This document shows positions 44,734 through 62,996 of a DNA stretch of 64,000 nucleotides, piece after piece (position 1 is the first letter of the stretch; the number at the start of each line of letters is the position of its first letter). A model generated the notes under the pieces. The model ran no database searches. It was not told where the DNA came from and was given only the letters and a program-made list of their open reading frames with translations. Made by a program: the position numbers and the translations under genes. Source of the stretch: Chloroflexota bacterium (GTDB lineage Bacteria; Chloroflexota; Anaerolineae; Anaerolineales; VGOW01); assembly GCA_016197225.1 (NCBI GenBank), contig JACPWC010000080.1:1-64000 (forward strand), read 5' to 3'.

Positions 44734-44781
44734 GGCAAGCTCTCTTTCATTTGACGTAACTGCTCACCAGGCAGGAAATTG

Positions 44782-44854
44782 GAACGCAGATTACGCAGAT
44801 TGGCGCAGATATTTTTGAAAAAAATCAGCGACGATCAGCGTTTTATCCGCGTTC
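44782..44854. repeat. Intergenic imperfect hairpin repeat
   Basis: GAACGC (44782-44787) pairs with GCGTTC (44849-44854), with interrupted pairing of ACGCAGAT and ATCAGCG units between. It fills most of the gap between the receiver operon promoter side and the rarA end. Same theme as the hairpins at 48002 and 60002 (reiterated ACGC(A/G)GAT). Confidence 0.55.
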
Positions 44855-44873
44855 TAATAGAAGCCGCGAGTAG

Positions 44874-47947: not shown

Positions 47948-48001
47948 GGCAACTTCATTTTACCCGAAAGGCTCTACCGGGTTGGCGCGAAAAGAAATTT
48001 T

Positions 48002-48056
48002 GGACGCGGATAAACGCGGATTTTTTATCAGCGAAAATCTGTGTTCATCCGCGTCC
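48002..48056. repeat. Intergenic hairpin repeat
   Basis: Perfect 10-bp arms GGACGCGGAT (48002-48011) and ATCCGCGTCC (48047-48056), with ACGCGGAT repeated inside. It lies in the 152-base gap between the HD-GYP gene's end and the sufE start. One of the long-hairpin group in this half of the window. No T-run follows on either strand. Confidence 0.7.
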
Positions 48057-48099
48057 TTATAAACCTCAAACGGCTTCAACATTTTGCCGGCATGCTTCC

Positions 48100-54779: not shown

Positions 54780-54809
54780 TTGACAAGTCCTAACACCGGG
54801 CGCTATAAT
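54780..54809 (+). promoter_or_regulatory. Strong sigma-70-type promoter for the ribXY transcript
   Basis: Perfect consensus boxes: TTGACA at 54780-54785 and TATAAT at 54804-54809, with an 18-base spacer. The start point would fall near 54816, about 13 bases before the first paired base of the riboswitch. The 130 bases before it, after the transglutaminase stop, hold no gene that I recognise. Confidence 0.85.
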
Positions 54810-54828
54810 CAGATCAACTAAATATATA

Positions 54829-55145
54829 CCTTCGGGGCAGGGTGCAGGAAGAGACATTCCTAACTCCCGATCGGCGGTAAGTCGGCCACAGGGTGTTCGG
54901 GCCAAACATCGAACATCATCACGACAAGCCCGCGAGCCGAGAGGCAATCCGATTGCGAGGAACAAGCAATCGTGGTTGCCCGGAAGCACGATCCGGTTAG
55001 AATCCGGAGCCGACAGTAATTCGACCTGAAAAAGACTTGCCACGAATTACGCGAATTTCCGCGAATTGAAAACTATGGTTTCATTCGTGATAATCCGTGA
55101 AATTCGTGGCTGAGACTCAGGGCGATCAGTCTGGATGAAAGAAGG
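54829..55145 (+). ncRNA. FMN riboswitch (RFN element) with an enlarged P6
   Basis: The conserved RFN blocks occur in order: P1 strand CCTTC at 54829-54833, GGGGCAGGGT, CTCCCGATCGGCGGT, AGCCCGCGAGCC, GATCCGGTTAGAATCCGGAG, CCGACAGT, and finally AGTCTGGATGAAAGAAGG, whose GAAGG (55141-55145) closes P1. Normally GACAGT and AGTC are a few bases apart; here about 110 bases (55018-55127) lie between them, holding a palindromic element. All core blocks look intact, so FMN binding is plausible. It precedes a riboflavin-transporter-like gene pair, the expected target. Likely control: FMN binding favours the downstream terminators. Confidence 0.92.
55039..55110. repeat. Palindromic element inside the riboswitch P6 loop
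   Basis: Perfect 10-bp outer arms GCCACGAATT (55039-55048) and AATTCGTGGC (55101-55110), with further imperfect pairing of CGCGAAT and ATTCGTG units inside. Flanking CCTGA (55025-55029) and TCAGG (55117-55121) could pair too and continue the stem towards P6. It belongs to the same group of long intergenic hairpins as those at 50939, 57234 and 62918. Confidence 0.85.
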
Positions 55146-55186
55146 GGCAAAACGCCGCAGTGGCGCGGCTTTTGCTATATGCGCGT

Positions 55187-55236
55187 CCCCGAAACTGCGG
55201 GTGGTCATTCAGGCCCGCCAGAATCGGGGTTTTTTT
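55187..55236 (+). terminator. Intrinsic terminator after the FMN riboswitch
   Basis: CCCCGA (55187-55192) pairs with TCGGGG (55224-55229) and GCGGG (55197-55201) with CCCGC (55214-55218); seven T follow at 55230-55236. Its place between riboswitch and coding sequence fits the expression platform of a transcription-attenuating RFN element. Confidence 0.85.
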
Positions 55237-55285
55237 GCGCTCAGGCTAACATCTGATCAACTGGATCAGGTGTTTGGTTTGCTTT

Positions 55286-55320
55286 GCCCCGCAGGTGAAA
55301 CTTTCTGTGGGGCATTTTTT
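55286..55320 (+). terminator. Second hairpin with T-run abutting the ribX start codon
   Basis: GCCCCGCAG (55286-55294) pairs with CTGTGGGGC (55305-55313) with one G-U pair, followed by A and six T ending directly before the ATG at 55321. The right arm holds GTGGGG, the only ribosome-site-like sequence for ribX, so the hairpin could both stop transcription and hide the ribosome site. A further hairpin (CATCTGATC / GATCAGGTG) lies just upstream. Confidence 0.7.
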
Positions 55321-56151
55321 ATGGCCGTCGCAAATCCGCTCAACTCCATTCTCCCGGCAGACCCGGCCAGCCGGCCGGACTCGAAACGTTCACTGCGCGC
55401 TCTGCGAGTCCAGCAGGCGCTATTGTTGCCCATCTCGTTGACGACGCTTCTGCTGGCCTGGCAGGGCCTGATCTGGTTCAAGGGCTACCCGGCTTTTATT
55501 TTGCCGCCCCCGGCGCGCGTTTGGGCGCGCCTCATGCAGGCTTTGGCTGACGGCACGCTCGTTCGGCACGCTTCCATTACGCTCGGCGAGAGTCTGAGCG
55601 GGCTGGCGCTCGGCCTGGCCGTGGCCGCCGTGCTGGGCTACCTGCTGGCCCAGTCGCGCACCATCGAACGCCTGCTGGCGCCGTATCTGGTGGCGTCGCA
55701 GTCCGTGCCCGTCGTCGCCATCGCCCCTCTGCTCGTCATCTGGTTCGGTTCCGGCCTCACCTCCAAAGTGTTGATCTGCGCCCTGATCGTTTTCTTTCCG
55801 GTGCTGATCAACATCATCGTCGGCGTGCGCTCGGTGGAGCCGGACTTGCGCGACCTGATGCGCTCTCTGCGGGCCAGCCGCTGGCAGACGTTCATGCTTC
55901 TGGAACTCCCTTCGGCCCTGCCGCTGTTGCTGGGCGGGTTGAAAATTGGGGCGACGCTGTCGGTGATCGGGGCCGTCGTCGGCGAGTTCGTGGGCGCGGA
56001 TCGCGGGCTGGGTTTCCTCATTAGCGCCGCGCGCGGCCAGTTCGACACGGCGCTGGTGTTTGTGGCCGTCCTGGCCCTCATTACGATTGCCATGACGCTC
56101 TACGGCTGTGTGGCCCTGCTGGAAAAAGTTTTGCTGGCCTGGAAAGGCTAA
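55321..56151 (+). CDS. ribX: ABC transporter permease, probable riboflavin transporter RibX
   Basis: A 276-residue permease of the NitT/TauT and thiamine-precursor type with about six membrane helices. The cytoplasmic EAA loop is visible: EPDLRDLMRSLRASRWQTF followed by LPSALPLLLGGLKIG. I start at 55321 (MAVANPLNS); the open frame reaches back to 55135, but that ATG is inside the riboswitch and its extra residues are not permease-like. The FMN riboswitch upstream and the binding-protein gene 36 bases downstream match the RibXY riboflavin systems known from Chloroflexota. No ATPase gene is adjacent, so it may share one from elsewhere. Confidence 0.9.
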   Translation: MAVANPLNSILPADPASRPDSKRSLRALRVQQALLLPISLTTLLLAWQGLIWFKGYPAFILPPPARVWARLMQALADGTLVRHASITLGESLSGLALGLAVAAVLGYLLAQSRTIERLLAPYLVASQSVPVVAIAPLLVIWFGSGLTSKVLICALIVFFPVLINIIVGVRSVEPDLRDLMRSLRASRWQTFMLLELPSALPLLLGGLKIGATLSVIGAVVGEFVGADRGLGFLISAARGQFDTALVFVAVLALITIAMTLYGCVALLEKVLLAWKG

Positions 56152-56187: not shown

Positions 56188-57225
56188 ATGAAAAAGGCAA
56201 TTTCTCTTCTACTCGCGCTCGCTGTTGCCGGGTGCGCCGGCAACACGCCTACTGCCGCTCCGCTGAACACGCTTCCCCCGGCAGAGACGGCTACCCCGAC
56301 GATAGCGCCCACCGCGACTCCGATCCCGCACGTCAAGCTGGCCATGGGCTTCATCCCCGACATTCAGTTTGCGCCGTTCTACGTGGCCGCCGAGAAAGGT
56401 TACTTTGACGAGCAAGGCATTGAGATCGAATTTGTGACCATGTTCGAGAACGACTCGGTGCCGCTGATTGGCGCAAACGAGTTGCAGTTCGCCAATGTGA
56501 GCGCCGAGCAGGTGATTCAAGCGCGGGCGCAGGGCCTGCCCGTGACGTATGTTTTCGCCTGGTATCAAAAGTTTCCGATTGTGATCGCCTCCAAAGCCGG
56601 GGAGGGGATTGTGAATCCCGAAGGGTTGCGAGGCCGCACGGTGGGCCTGCCCGGTTTGTTTGGGGCCAGCTATATCGGCCTGCGCGCCCTGCTTGCTTCG
56701 CAAGGCATCCCCGAAAGCGATGTGCTATTGGAAGCCATCGGCTTCACGCAAGTTGAAGCCCTGACGGCGGATCAGGTGCAGGCGGTGGTGGGCTATGCCA
56801 GCAATGAGCCGGTGAAACTTAAAGCAACCGGCCAGGAGATCAACGTGATCAACGTGTCCGACTATGCTCAACTGGCCGGCAACGGGTTGGTGACCAACGA
56901 GCAAACGTTGACCGAGCATCCTGAACTGGTGCAGGGCATGGTGACGGCTTTGCTCAAAGGGTTGACCGACACGATTGCCGACCCGGATGAGGCCTTTGAA
57001 ATTTCCAAGAAGTACGTGGAGACTCTGGCGACCGCCGACGAAGCGACCGCCGCCACCGCCCGCCAGGTTTTAGCCGCCTCGATTGAGTTGTGGCAAGCAC
57101 CGGAACTTGGGGTGGCCGACCTGGGCCAGTGGGAGCAAACGCAAAATACGTTGTTGCAAATGGGGTTGATCACCGAGCCGGTTGATTTCAACGTGACGGT
57201 GACGAATGAATTTGTGAGGCCATAA
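56188..57225 (+). CDS. ribY: Substrate-binding lipoprotein, probable riboflavin-binding RibY
   Basis: A 345-residue NMT1/THI5-like periplasmic-type binding protein. A lipoprotein signal peptide ends at LAVAGC (Cys16), followed by a Thr/Pro/Ala-rich linker to about residue 46. The mature domain begins VKLAMGFIPDIQFAPFYVAA and EKGYFDEQGIEIEFV, typical of the family, with VGLPGLFGASYIGLRALLAS later. GGA lies before the ATG. Partner of RibX by adjacency and the shared riboswitch. Thiamine-precursor binding is the main alternative, but the FMN riboswitch argues for riboflavin. Confidence 0.9.
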   Translation: MKKAISLLLALAVAGCAGNTPTAAPLNTLPPAETATPTIAPTATPIPHVKLAMGFIPDIQFAPFYVAAEKGYFDEQGIEIEFVTMFENDSVPLIGANELQFANVSAEQVIQARAQGLPVTYVFAWYQKFPIVIASKAGEGIVNPEGLRGRTVGLPGLFGASYIGLRALLASQGIPESDVLLEAIGFTQVEALTADQVQAVVGYASNEPVKLKATGQEINVINVSDYAQLAGNGLVTNEQTLTEHPELVQGMVTALLKGLTDTIADPDEAFEISKKYVETLATADEATAATARQVLAASIELWQAPELGVADLGQWEQTQNTLLQMGLITEPVDFNVTVTNEFVRP

Positions 57226-57233
57226 AAAGAATC

Positions 57234-57281
57234 CACGAAGACACACGAAGTTCACTAAGATTTCCTTCGTGTGTCTTCGTG
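57234..57281. repeat. Hairpin repeat between convergent ribY and a kinase gene
   Basis: Perfect 17-bp arms CACGAAGACACACGAAG (57234-57250) and CTTCGTGTGTCTTCGTG (57265-57281) with a 14-base loop; outer ATCCA and TGGAT add further pairing. It fills the gap between convergent genes and could end transcription in both directions, although there is no T-run. Confidence 0.85.
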
Positions 57282-57291
57282 TCCTTGTGGA

Positions 57292-58551
57292 TCAGACTTC
57301 TCGTGGTAGCGTAAAAAAGAACCGCGCCCCCTGCTCGGTTGCGCTCTCGACGCCGATTTGGCCGCCGTGCGCTTCGACGATGCCTTTGGCAATCGCCAGC
57401 CCCAGCCCGGCGCCGCCGGTGGCCCGGCTCCGCGATTTTTCGCCGCGATAAAACTGCTGGAAGATGAACGGCAAGTCTTCAGCCCGAATCCCTTCACCCG
57501 TATCTTGAATTTCAACCAGCACGCCTGCGGAAGATTTGGAGGCGCGCACTTGCACTTTGCCGCCCGCCGGAGTGTGGCGCAAGGCGTTGCTCACCAGGTT
57601 CGCCACCACCTGGCCGATTCGGCGCGTGTCAATCAGGATCGGGTCAACCCCTGGGGCGGCGCTCCCTTCGAGAGTCACGCCCTGCCGGGCCGCCAACTCG
57701 GAGAAGCTCTCGATGGTGTCGGAGATCAAGTCTGAGAGCGAGCCTGGGTGGCGCGAGAGTTGCAGGCCGCCGGCGTCAATCTGCGCCATTTGAAAGAGAT
57801 CGTCAATCAACAAAGAGAGTGAGCGGATGTCTCTCTGCATCGTCGTCAGGTAGCGTTTGACGGTGTCGGCGTCGTCCACCATGCCGTCGGCCAGGGCTTC
57901 CACCATCGCCCGGATCGAGGCCAGCGGCGTGCGCAAGTCGTGGCCCACCCAGGCGATCAGGTCGCGCCGCAGGGTGTCCAACTCCTCCTGCTTTTTGATG
58001 GCGGTTTCGATCTGGGCGGCCATGGTGTTGAAGGTGCGGGCCAGGTCGGCCAGTTCGTCACTGCCCGTCACTGGCACGCGAGTCGCCAGGTCGCCTTCGG
58101 CGACGCTATTGGCCGCCTGATTCAAAACCACGATCCGGTCGGTCAGGGCCTCGGAGAGAAAGTATCCCAACGAAATGGCGATGCCCCCGGCGAACACCAG
58201 CAGGACGGTCGCCAGCAACAAGTCGTGCAGACTGGCAAACATCAGCCGCGCCGTCAGCCAGACATTGAAAAACGTCAACAGGCTGGAGAGCGCATAGCCG
58301 CCCAGCACGGTAAGGCGGATGCGCGGCGAGCGGCTGATCCAGCCGAGCCGGTACGCGCCGTAACCGGCGGCCACCGAGATCATGGCCGTGATGGTGAGGA
58401 AGAGCGCCATCAGCCCGATCTCGTTCACCGGCGGACTCATGAGCAAATAAAAGATGCCGAGCGAGACGAGGACAGCCAGGGCCACGCCGCCGGCCGAGCG
58501 CAACATCAGCGATGGTTTGTGGGAGGGGCGATCAGAGAGAGTGGTGTCCAT
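57292..58551 (-). CDS. Membrane sensor histidine kinase
   Basis: A 419-residue kinase with four predicted membrane helices (about 19-38, 45-70, 78-104, 108-132) and almost no extracellular loop, so it may sense within the membrane. A HAMP linker follows (about 133-185), then the phosphoacceptor domain with WVGHDLRTPLASI (His204) and an ATPase domain with VANLVSNALRHTP, IQDTGEGI and GAGLGLAIAKGIVEAHGG. All boxes needed for autophosphorylation are present. It follows its response regulator gene after a 79-base gap that holds an inverted repeat. Signal unknown. Confidence 0.95.
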   Translation of the reverse strand: MDTTLSDRPSHKPSLMLRSAGGVALAVLVSLGIFYLLMSPPVNEIGLMALFLTITAMISVAAGYGAYRLGWISRSPRIRLTVLGGYALSSLLTFFNVWLTARLMFASLHDLLLATVLLVFAGGIAISLGYFLSEALTDRIVVLNQAANSVAEGDLATRVPVTGSDELADLARTFNTMAAQIETAIKKQEELDTLRRDLIAWVGHDLRTPLASIRAMVEALADGMVDDADTVKRYLTTMQRDIRSLSLLIDDLFQMAQIDAGGLQLSRHPGSLSDLISDTIESFSELAARQGVTLEGSAAPGVDPILIDTRRIGQVVANLVSNALRHTPAGGKVQVRASKSSAGVLVEIQDTGEGIRAEDLPFIFQQFYRGEKSRSRATGGAGLGLAIAKGIVEAHGGQIGVESATEQGARFFFTLPREV

Positions 58552-59891: not shown

Positions 59892-60001
59892 GAGTCTTAC
59901 AACCTCTCCTGAAAAAGCTGGCTCCAGTGTAGGCAGTAAAACTTACGGAAGTATTAATAATCTTGCTTCGGATATCTTATCTGTACAGAGAGCAAAAAAC
60001 C

Positions 60002-60102
60002 AGAACGCGGATTTCGCGGACGCTTCGCACGCGGATGAACGCAGATAAAACCCTAAAAGAGATCGGCGAAAATCCGCGTCCATCAGCGTTTATCTGCGTT
60101 CT
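60002..60102. repeat. Compound intergenic hairpin repeat
   Basis: Outer AGAACGC (60002-60008) pairs with GCGTTCT (60096-60102); a stronger alternative is GAACGCAGATAAA (60037-60049) with TTTATCTGCGTTC (60089-60101), 13 bp perfect. Units ACGCGGAT and ATCCGCGT recur. It occupies much of the 274-base gap between the desaturase end and the DM13 gene; I saw no gene in the rest of the gap. Confidence 0.75.
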
Positions 60103-60165
60103 AAAAAACCGGCCTATGCTGTTGCATTTTCGGTTGTAGATCCAGATCGGAAGGCGCTTTTGGGT

Positions 60166-62912: not shown

Positions 62913-62917
62913 TTTTG

Positions 62918-62988
62918 ATCCACAGATTTACGCAGATTTTCACAGACGGATTAAACAAATCTGCGCTAATCTGTGTAAATCTGTGGAT
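62918..62988. repeat. Long hairpin repeat before the cyclase gene
   Basis: Arms of 21 bp with one G-T mismatch: from ATCCACAGATTTACGC (62918-62938) to the right arm ending AAATCTGTGGAT (62968-62988). It begins six bases after the ATPase stop and ends eight bases before the cyclase ATG. It may end the first transcript and lies where a ribosome site for the second would be expected. Confidence 0.85.
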
Positions 62989-62996
62989 AACAAAAA

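Follow-up and report, generated by a model that had tools for sequence, protein, structure and literature searches.

Dispersed palindromic repeats at the tip of the P6 stem of a predicted FMN riboswitch in a genus of Anaerolineales

The predicted FMN riboswitch in the ribXY leader of an uncultured Chloroflexota bacterium carries, at the tip of its P6 stem, a copy of a palindromic repeat that is dispersed through the same genome. The riboswitch was analysed in a stretch of 64,000 nucleotides (hereafter the window), which lies in contig C80 of a 4.8 Mb genome in 126 contigs (G000). Our best reading, to which we give a rough probability of 0.8 as a joint figure for the whole explanation, is that the window holds one intact-looking predicted FMN aptamer controlling ribXY, and that its loop L6 is a permissive site that palindromic repeats have colonised at least three times. 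Three unrelated repeat families occur among five species of the genus, and at least three acquisitions or exchanges are therefore needed.

The FMN riboswitch aptamer (RFN element) occupies positions 54829–55145 of the forward strand, and its L2, P3, P4 and L6 are expanded. Residues 54829–54833 pair with 55141–55145 to form P1. The initial annotation had claimed that all conserved RFN blocks are in order, and they are indeed all found between 54829 and 55145: CCTTCGGGGCAGGGTG, ATCGGCGGTAA, AGCCCGCGAGC, GATCCGG..CCGGAGCCGACAGT and GTCTGGATGAAAGAAGG. Its estimate of about 110 bases between two blocks that normally lie a few bases apart also holds, as GCCGACAGT (55009–55017) is separated from GTCTGGATG (starting at 55129) by 111 nt, compared with 3–4 nt in 70 of 75 other leaders. 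All five species of the genus have the same 17-mer, GTCTGGATGAAAGAAGG, as their 3' block.

The stock Rfam model RF00050 matches positions 54824–55040 with a score of 35.7 bits, below its gathering score of 66.2 bits, which is a detection threshold and no biological feature. The 3' end of this match is wrongly put inside the insert. A clade covariance model (R2), for which 11 other ribX leaders and the Rfam secondary structure were used and the window was left out, covers positions 54824–55150 with a score of 85.7 bits and an E-value of 1e-22; as its calibration was short, the E-values of R2 are rough, yet the margin is very wide. The proposed check with the Rfam FMN model has thus a divided outcome, since the stock model fails on the 3' block, whereas R2 has it in place, with the additional bases accommodated in P6 as an insertion. 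At full length under R2, the element has the ordered blocks and the P1–P6 architecture of RF00050, and it is located upstream of riboflavin transport genes, homologues of ribX and ribY. In the other four species of the genus (the congeners), whose L6 loops measure 48–60 nt, the Rfam scores range from 63 to 88 bits, with three at 82–88 bits and G002 at 63.3 bits. The shortfall of the window fits the length of its insertions. The aptamer presumably still binds FMN. Rfam matches to a miRNA and to anti-hemB in the window are far below the cutoff and were dismissed as chance.

That an FMN riboswitch precedes the riboflavin transporter genes ribXY is established in Chloroflexi (PMC4418817), and we name the window genes after that work. 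ribX (55321–56151) encodes an ABC transporter permease (PF00528), and ribY (56188–57225) encodes an NMT1/THI5-like substrate-binding protein (PF09084); both are on the forward strand, as are all leader features described here. Judged by RibX, the nearest relatives of the genome are metagenome-assembled genomes of Anaerolineales/Chloroflexi. A promoter, TTGACA-18-TATAAT with 12 of 12 matches (54780–54809), is positioned just upstream of the aptamer. Two terminator-like hairpins are arranged in tandem between the aptamer and ribX. The putative leader terminator, assigned by eye, is a two-part hairpin CCCCGA..TCGGGG followed by TTTTTTT (55187–55236), and the other hairpin, also with a T run, directly precedes the ribX start (55285–55320). 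Related leaders repeatedly have a GCCCCG...GGGGC hairpin and a T run immediately ahead of the start codon. The L2 T-loop of the window holds an extra hairpin (54845–54863), and an L2 hairpin of similar length was found only in G002. Another additional hairpin, GGCAATCC...GGTTGCC (54943–54980), extends P4 and is absent in all four congeners; it was considered as a repeat and dropped, as it has a single 25-nt partial match in the genome.

The expanded L6 (55018–55128, 111 nt) is composed of an outer stem and a 78-nt palindrome at its tip. The base of P6 is formed by CAG (55014–55016) pairing with CTG (55131–55133) with a probability of ~0.77–0.78. The outer extension of P6 is formed by TCGACCTG (55021–55028) and its partner CAGGGCGA (55118–55125), which have pair probabilities of 0.92–0.99 and one A-G mismatch. 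The insert was initially described as a palindrome, which is correct for 78 of the 111 nt; the remainder is outer P6 stem, partly common to the congeners. In the solved structure of the FMN riboswitch, the T-loop L2 receives A90 of L6, and C30 is the pairing partner of the L6 residue G93 (PMC3764141). According to our own mapping of the conserved CAGUA.AGUC string, A55018 corresponds to A90, A55128 to A92 and G55129 to G93, which would make residue 91 the replaced position of L6. The window retains A55018, A55128 and G55129. In the 75 other leaders, including those with long loops, the last residue of L6 is an A in all cases and the first is an A in 60. The extra stem would exit L6 between the equivalents of A90 and A92, and since A90 and G93 are kept, a self-contained hairpin could protrude at residue 91 and leave the FMN pocket untouched.

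Folding of the whole leader, a thermodynamic prediction that includes neither ligand nor tertiary contacts, places 99.96% of the expected pairing of the palindrome within the palindrome itself. The pair probabilities of P1, P2, P5 and P6 with and without the palindrome are equal within 0.01. The suggestion that a stem-ended insert could extend P6 with the core unharmed is consistent with these predictions. Trimming L6 to the short form lowers the predicted pairing of P6 from ~0.78 to ~0.34. The P3 core helix is poorly predicted by plain folding in every version, with or without the insert, and the folding energy is therefore no proof of an active aptamer.

The palindrome (55036–55113) has three CRCGAATT units in each arm and ends in TTGCC...GGCTGA. 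It has 29 BLAST matches in its own genome. Because it matches other places in the genome with E-values of 1e-10 to 1e-4, and a pattern derived from it has 14 genomic hits as opposed to none in the reversed control, the palindrome is a copy of a dispersed family and not a chance structure. The copies elsewhere share the arms of three CRCGAATT units and the common ends TTTGCC...GGCTGA. A covariance model of this ACGAATT family yields 89 matches over both strands, with at least 38 distinct sites among the matches listed. At three pairs, the arms co-vary between A-U and G-C, and complementarity is kept. The initial annotation spoke of a mobile palindrome tolerated inside a ligand-binding RNA; a dispersed copy does reside in an intact-looking aptamer, but mobility of the family is suggested only by its copy number and dispersion. 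AGACT flanks the window copy on both sides, but a common target-site duplication could not be established among the other copies. No empty site for the palindrome was found among the congeners, all four of which have a long L6. A GTAG or CGTC tag is absent from the hairpin ends of the window copies, and no known RNA was detected at the Rfam cutoff near 20 genomic copies. The palindrome was rejected as an intrinsic terminator: since no T run follows it on the forward strand, transcription should not end there.

General repeat finding within the window recovers only distant relatives of the palindrome. At E-values of up to 0.04, the covariance model finds five other related hairpins, at 44780–44856, 47999–48059, 57229–57294, 60001–60103 and 62916–62990. 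They share the plan of the P6 palindrome, with units of ~10 nt iterated in each arm, and the letters of the units vary by copy (GCAGATT, GCGGAT or CACGAAGA). Related hairpins in other gaps of the window thus exist as proposed, but there are five rather than at least six, and with other unit letters. The hairpin at 57229–57294 lies where ribY and a histidine kinase gene converge, between their ends.

The long L6 is nearly confined to the genus of the window, and a milder form is found in family f10. In the 75 other scored ribX leaders of Anaerolineae, L6 is 3 nt long in 52, 4 nt in 18 and 30 nt in one, and the four congeners, which are part of this set, have L6 loops of 48, 51, 58 and 60 nt. 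One further leader of family f10 has a 32-nt L6. A pattern scan for L6 loops of 25–55 nt in 400 genomes of the order identified four genomes; two belong to congeners, and the other two, which have short hairpins, to family f10. The initial annotation had proposed comparing P6 lengths among relatives and regarded equally long, unrelated P6 stems as evidence against an insertion. All four congeners do have long P6 stems, but most of these are repeats as well, so that an observation that appears to count half against the idea strengthens it. A repeat copy is thus present inside P6 and L6, as had been claimed, but since the L6 loops of all four congeners are 48–60 nt long, the palindrome did not simply land in a normal 3-nt loop.

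The contents of L6 differ among the congeners, which are represented by draft genomes, in a sample of one genus with five species, one of them without a recognisable repeat. The L6 loops of G004 and G001 contain GTAGGGGCAGGCCTTGCGCTTGCCC and GTAGGGGCAAGCCTTGCGCTTGCCC, respectively, and share the motif GTAGGGGCA[AG]GCCTTGCGCTTGCCC. Both inserts carry the GTAG tag and are of the GTAG-type REP; GTAG plus a hairpin is the hallmark of REP elements, which have been reported in Chloroflexi (PMC3733652). With up to three mismatches, the L6 repeat has 33 genomic matches in G001, 14 in G004, none in G000 and none in the reversed control. The L6 of G002 contains a long, irregular hairpin that is unique in its genome, and a long L6 therefore does not require a repeat.

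The L6 of G003 holds a perfect 33-nt palindrome, AGAATTCCGATTTCT-TAA-AGAAATCGGAATTCT, which is single-copy as a sequence and was assigned by architecture, not by close sequence, to a class of palindromes with a 15-bp stem of varying letters, a 3-nt loop and the ends AGA...TCT. This class accounts for 17 of the 26 perfect hairpins in 130 kb of G003 contigs chosen arbitrarily and regardless of repeats; shuffled sequences contain none. Palindromes of the form AGA-N9-TCT-NNN-AGA-N9-TCT have a density of ~130 per Mb in G003 (contigs L242–L286 and L307–L326; for example, L245 11634–11666 and 11900–11932). Their arms co-vary, which would not be expected of a repeat that spreads by simple copying. A second member of the class is located just before the ribX start codon of G003, between the leader terminator and the start codon (L007 2959–2993), and is missing in the sister species G001 (L008). 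The RibX proteins of the two sisters are near-identical, with branch lengths of 0.012 and 0.016, and their 5' aptamer parts are 96.7% identical without gaps, yet their L6 palindromes are unrelated. The outer stem is partly shared, with AATTCG...CGATAA or CGATCA in G000 and G004 and the compensating AATTCAC...GTGATAA in G003.

We hypothesize that a longer P6 stem was present or arose first in the genus, and that palindromic repeats of at least three unrelated families later came to its tip in different species. Because the outer stem is partly shared, the lengthening of P6 in the genus probably predates the present tips. Transposition, or recombination with copies elsewhere, may have brought the repeats there. 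The FMN-bound aptamer with its extended P6 would control ribXY as in relatives, and the palindrome would be a protruding passenger, presumably close to neutral. It is also possible that the palindrome helps P6 to form, and, because of the insert, the 3' half of the aptamer would appear 78 nt later during transcription. From the ~80–200 hairpins per Mb that were seen and an intergenic share assumed to be about an eighth of the genome, we roughly estimate that a few percent of genomes would have a palindrome at any one site of 20 nt. Palindromes in three of the four congeners are thus unlikely under even scattering, with the window that drew attention set aside. Both survivorship in a permissive loop and a real hotspot could produce such a distribution.

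The low stock Rfam score and the expansion of L2, P3 and P4 would suit a riboswitch in decay, with the insert marking a non-functional leader. We consider this quite improbable, given that the conserved blocks are retained, that five species share an identical 3' 17-mer, that the promoter is perfect and ribXY intact, and that the insert-bearing congeners score 63–88 bits. The insert could also be an ordinary variable P6 insertion whose likeness to genomic repeats is coincidental, as riboswitches tolerate long variable stem-loop insertions (PMC2258182), and G002 and two leaders of family f10 have long P6 hairpins without recognised repeat status. However, close copies occur elsewhere in the same genomes, the reversed or shuffled controls are at zero and four of the five species contradict a coincidence, which makes this explanation extremely improbable.

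Another proposal is that selection favours a long P6 in the genus, and that stems are exchanged with dispersed palindromes by recombination or gene conversion instead of being inserted. The retention of a long L6 in all five species, the gain in predicted P6 pairing and one compensatory change in the outer stem (TCG/CGA versus TCA/TGA) are in its favour, but it is unlikely, since lengths of 48 to 111 nt and unrelated apical sequences permit only a weak demand on shape, and 70 other leaders manage without. It is conceivable, if doubtful, that L6 is a true integration hotspot, where the hairpin as single-stranded DNA is targeted by transposition of the REP type (RAYT/IS200-like) or similar. Four of the five species hold repeat palindromes at the one tip, RAYT-family genes (PF01797) are present in all five genomes, and GTAG repeats of T. 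roseum, a member of Chloroflexota, and of A. variabilis have been reported inside palindromes (PMC3733652). On the other hand, the ACGAATT and 33-mer families lack the GTAG tag, and no copies of the ACGAATT or L6-type REP repeats were found beside RAYT genes, although one other GTAGGGGC hairpin pair is near a partial RAYT match in G004. In addition, no fresh insertion was seen, and survivorship in a permissive loop explains the same pattern. We tentatively speculate that residue 91 of L6 is a recurrent docking site, where unrelated mobile palindromes arrive and replace one another and the riboswitch grows and is reshaped by serial hairpin capture, possibly with the P6 hairpin in single-stranded DNA itself serving as the target.

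The window riboswitch resembles other members of RF00050 in its conserved blocks, in the order of P1–P6 and in its position upstream of ribXY, as in other Chloroflexi (PMC4418817), but differs in the length of L6 (111 nt versus 3–4 nt), in having a genomic repeat at the tip and in the expansions of L2, P3 and P4. Variable insertions in riboswitches are long stem-loops at specific peripheral sites that leave the core undisturbed (Barrick and Breaker 2007, PMC2258182). The insert described here is similarly peripheral, with the core undisturbed, whereas its source could be identified as dispersed palindromic repeats, which belong to several unrelated families but occupy a single site. The L6 inserts of G001 and G004 correspond to GTAG-tagged REP elements (PMC3733652), being multi-copy and consisting of GTAG and a short hairpin in a phylum with reported GTAG repeats; in contrast to the known elements, they reside inside a ligand-binding RNA, and the ACGAATT palindrome of the window and the G003 33-mer are not GTAG elements. 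A pneumococcal BOX element is located between two T-box riboswitches in a leader that still seems to work (PMC3049150). There, too, a small repeat is joined with a riboswitch in one leader, but it lies between two riboswitches and not inside an aptamer. Genomic repeats are found in other structured RNAs as well: STRR repeats reportedly occur within the RNase P RNA of heterocystous cyanobacteria, as the title of a 1997 paper by Vioque has it. Those repeats are short and tandem, and the RNA is a ribozyme, whereas the repeats described here are dispersed palindromes and the RNA is a riboswitch. In the literature that we searched, in which subscription journals were thinly covered, we came across no description of dispersed palindromes within the aptamer of a riboswitch or of one loop occupied by several families, and no stated origin for riboswitch variable insertions.

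The presence of three unrelated genomic repeat families at one structurally permissive aptamer position suggests that mobile hairpins can enlarge riboswitches when captured at positions where they are harmless, and the palindromic inserts show one way for structured RNAs to gain stems. The sister species G003 and G001, with near-identical 5' aptamers and unrelated inserts, are natural matched pairs for studying the effects of peripheral helices on folding speed and ligand response. Riboswitches of this kind can escape stock covariance models, as illustrated by the 35.7 bits from Rfam and the 85.7 bits from the clade model. In a separate part of the window (1–32700), six diverged direct-repeat modules are spaced at 4–7.6 kb and are 60–99% identical; at a guess, they look like a modular polyketide synthase cluster.
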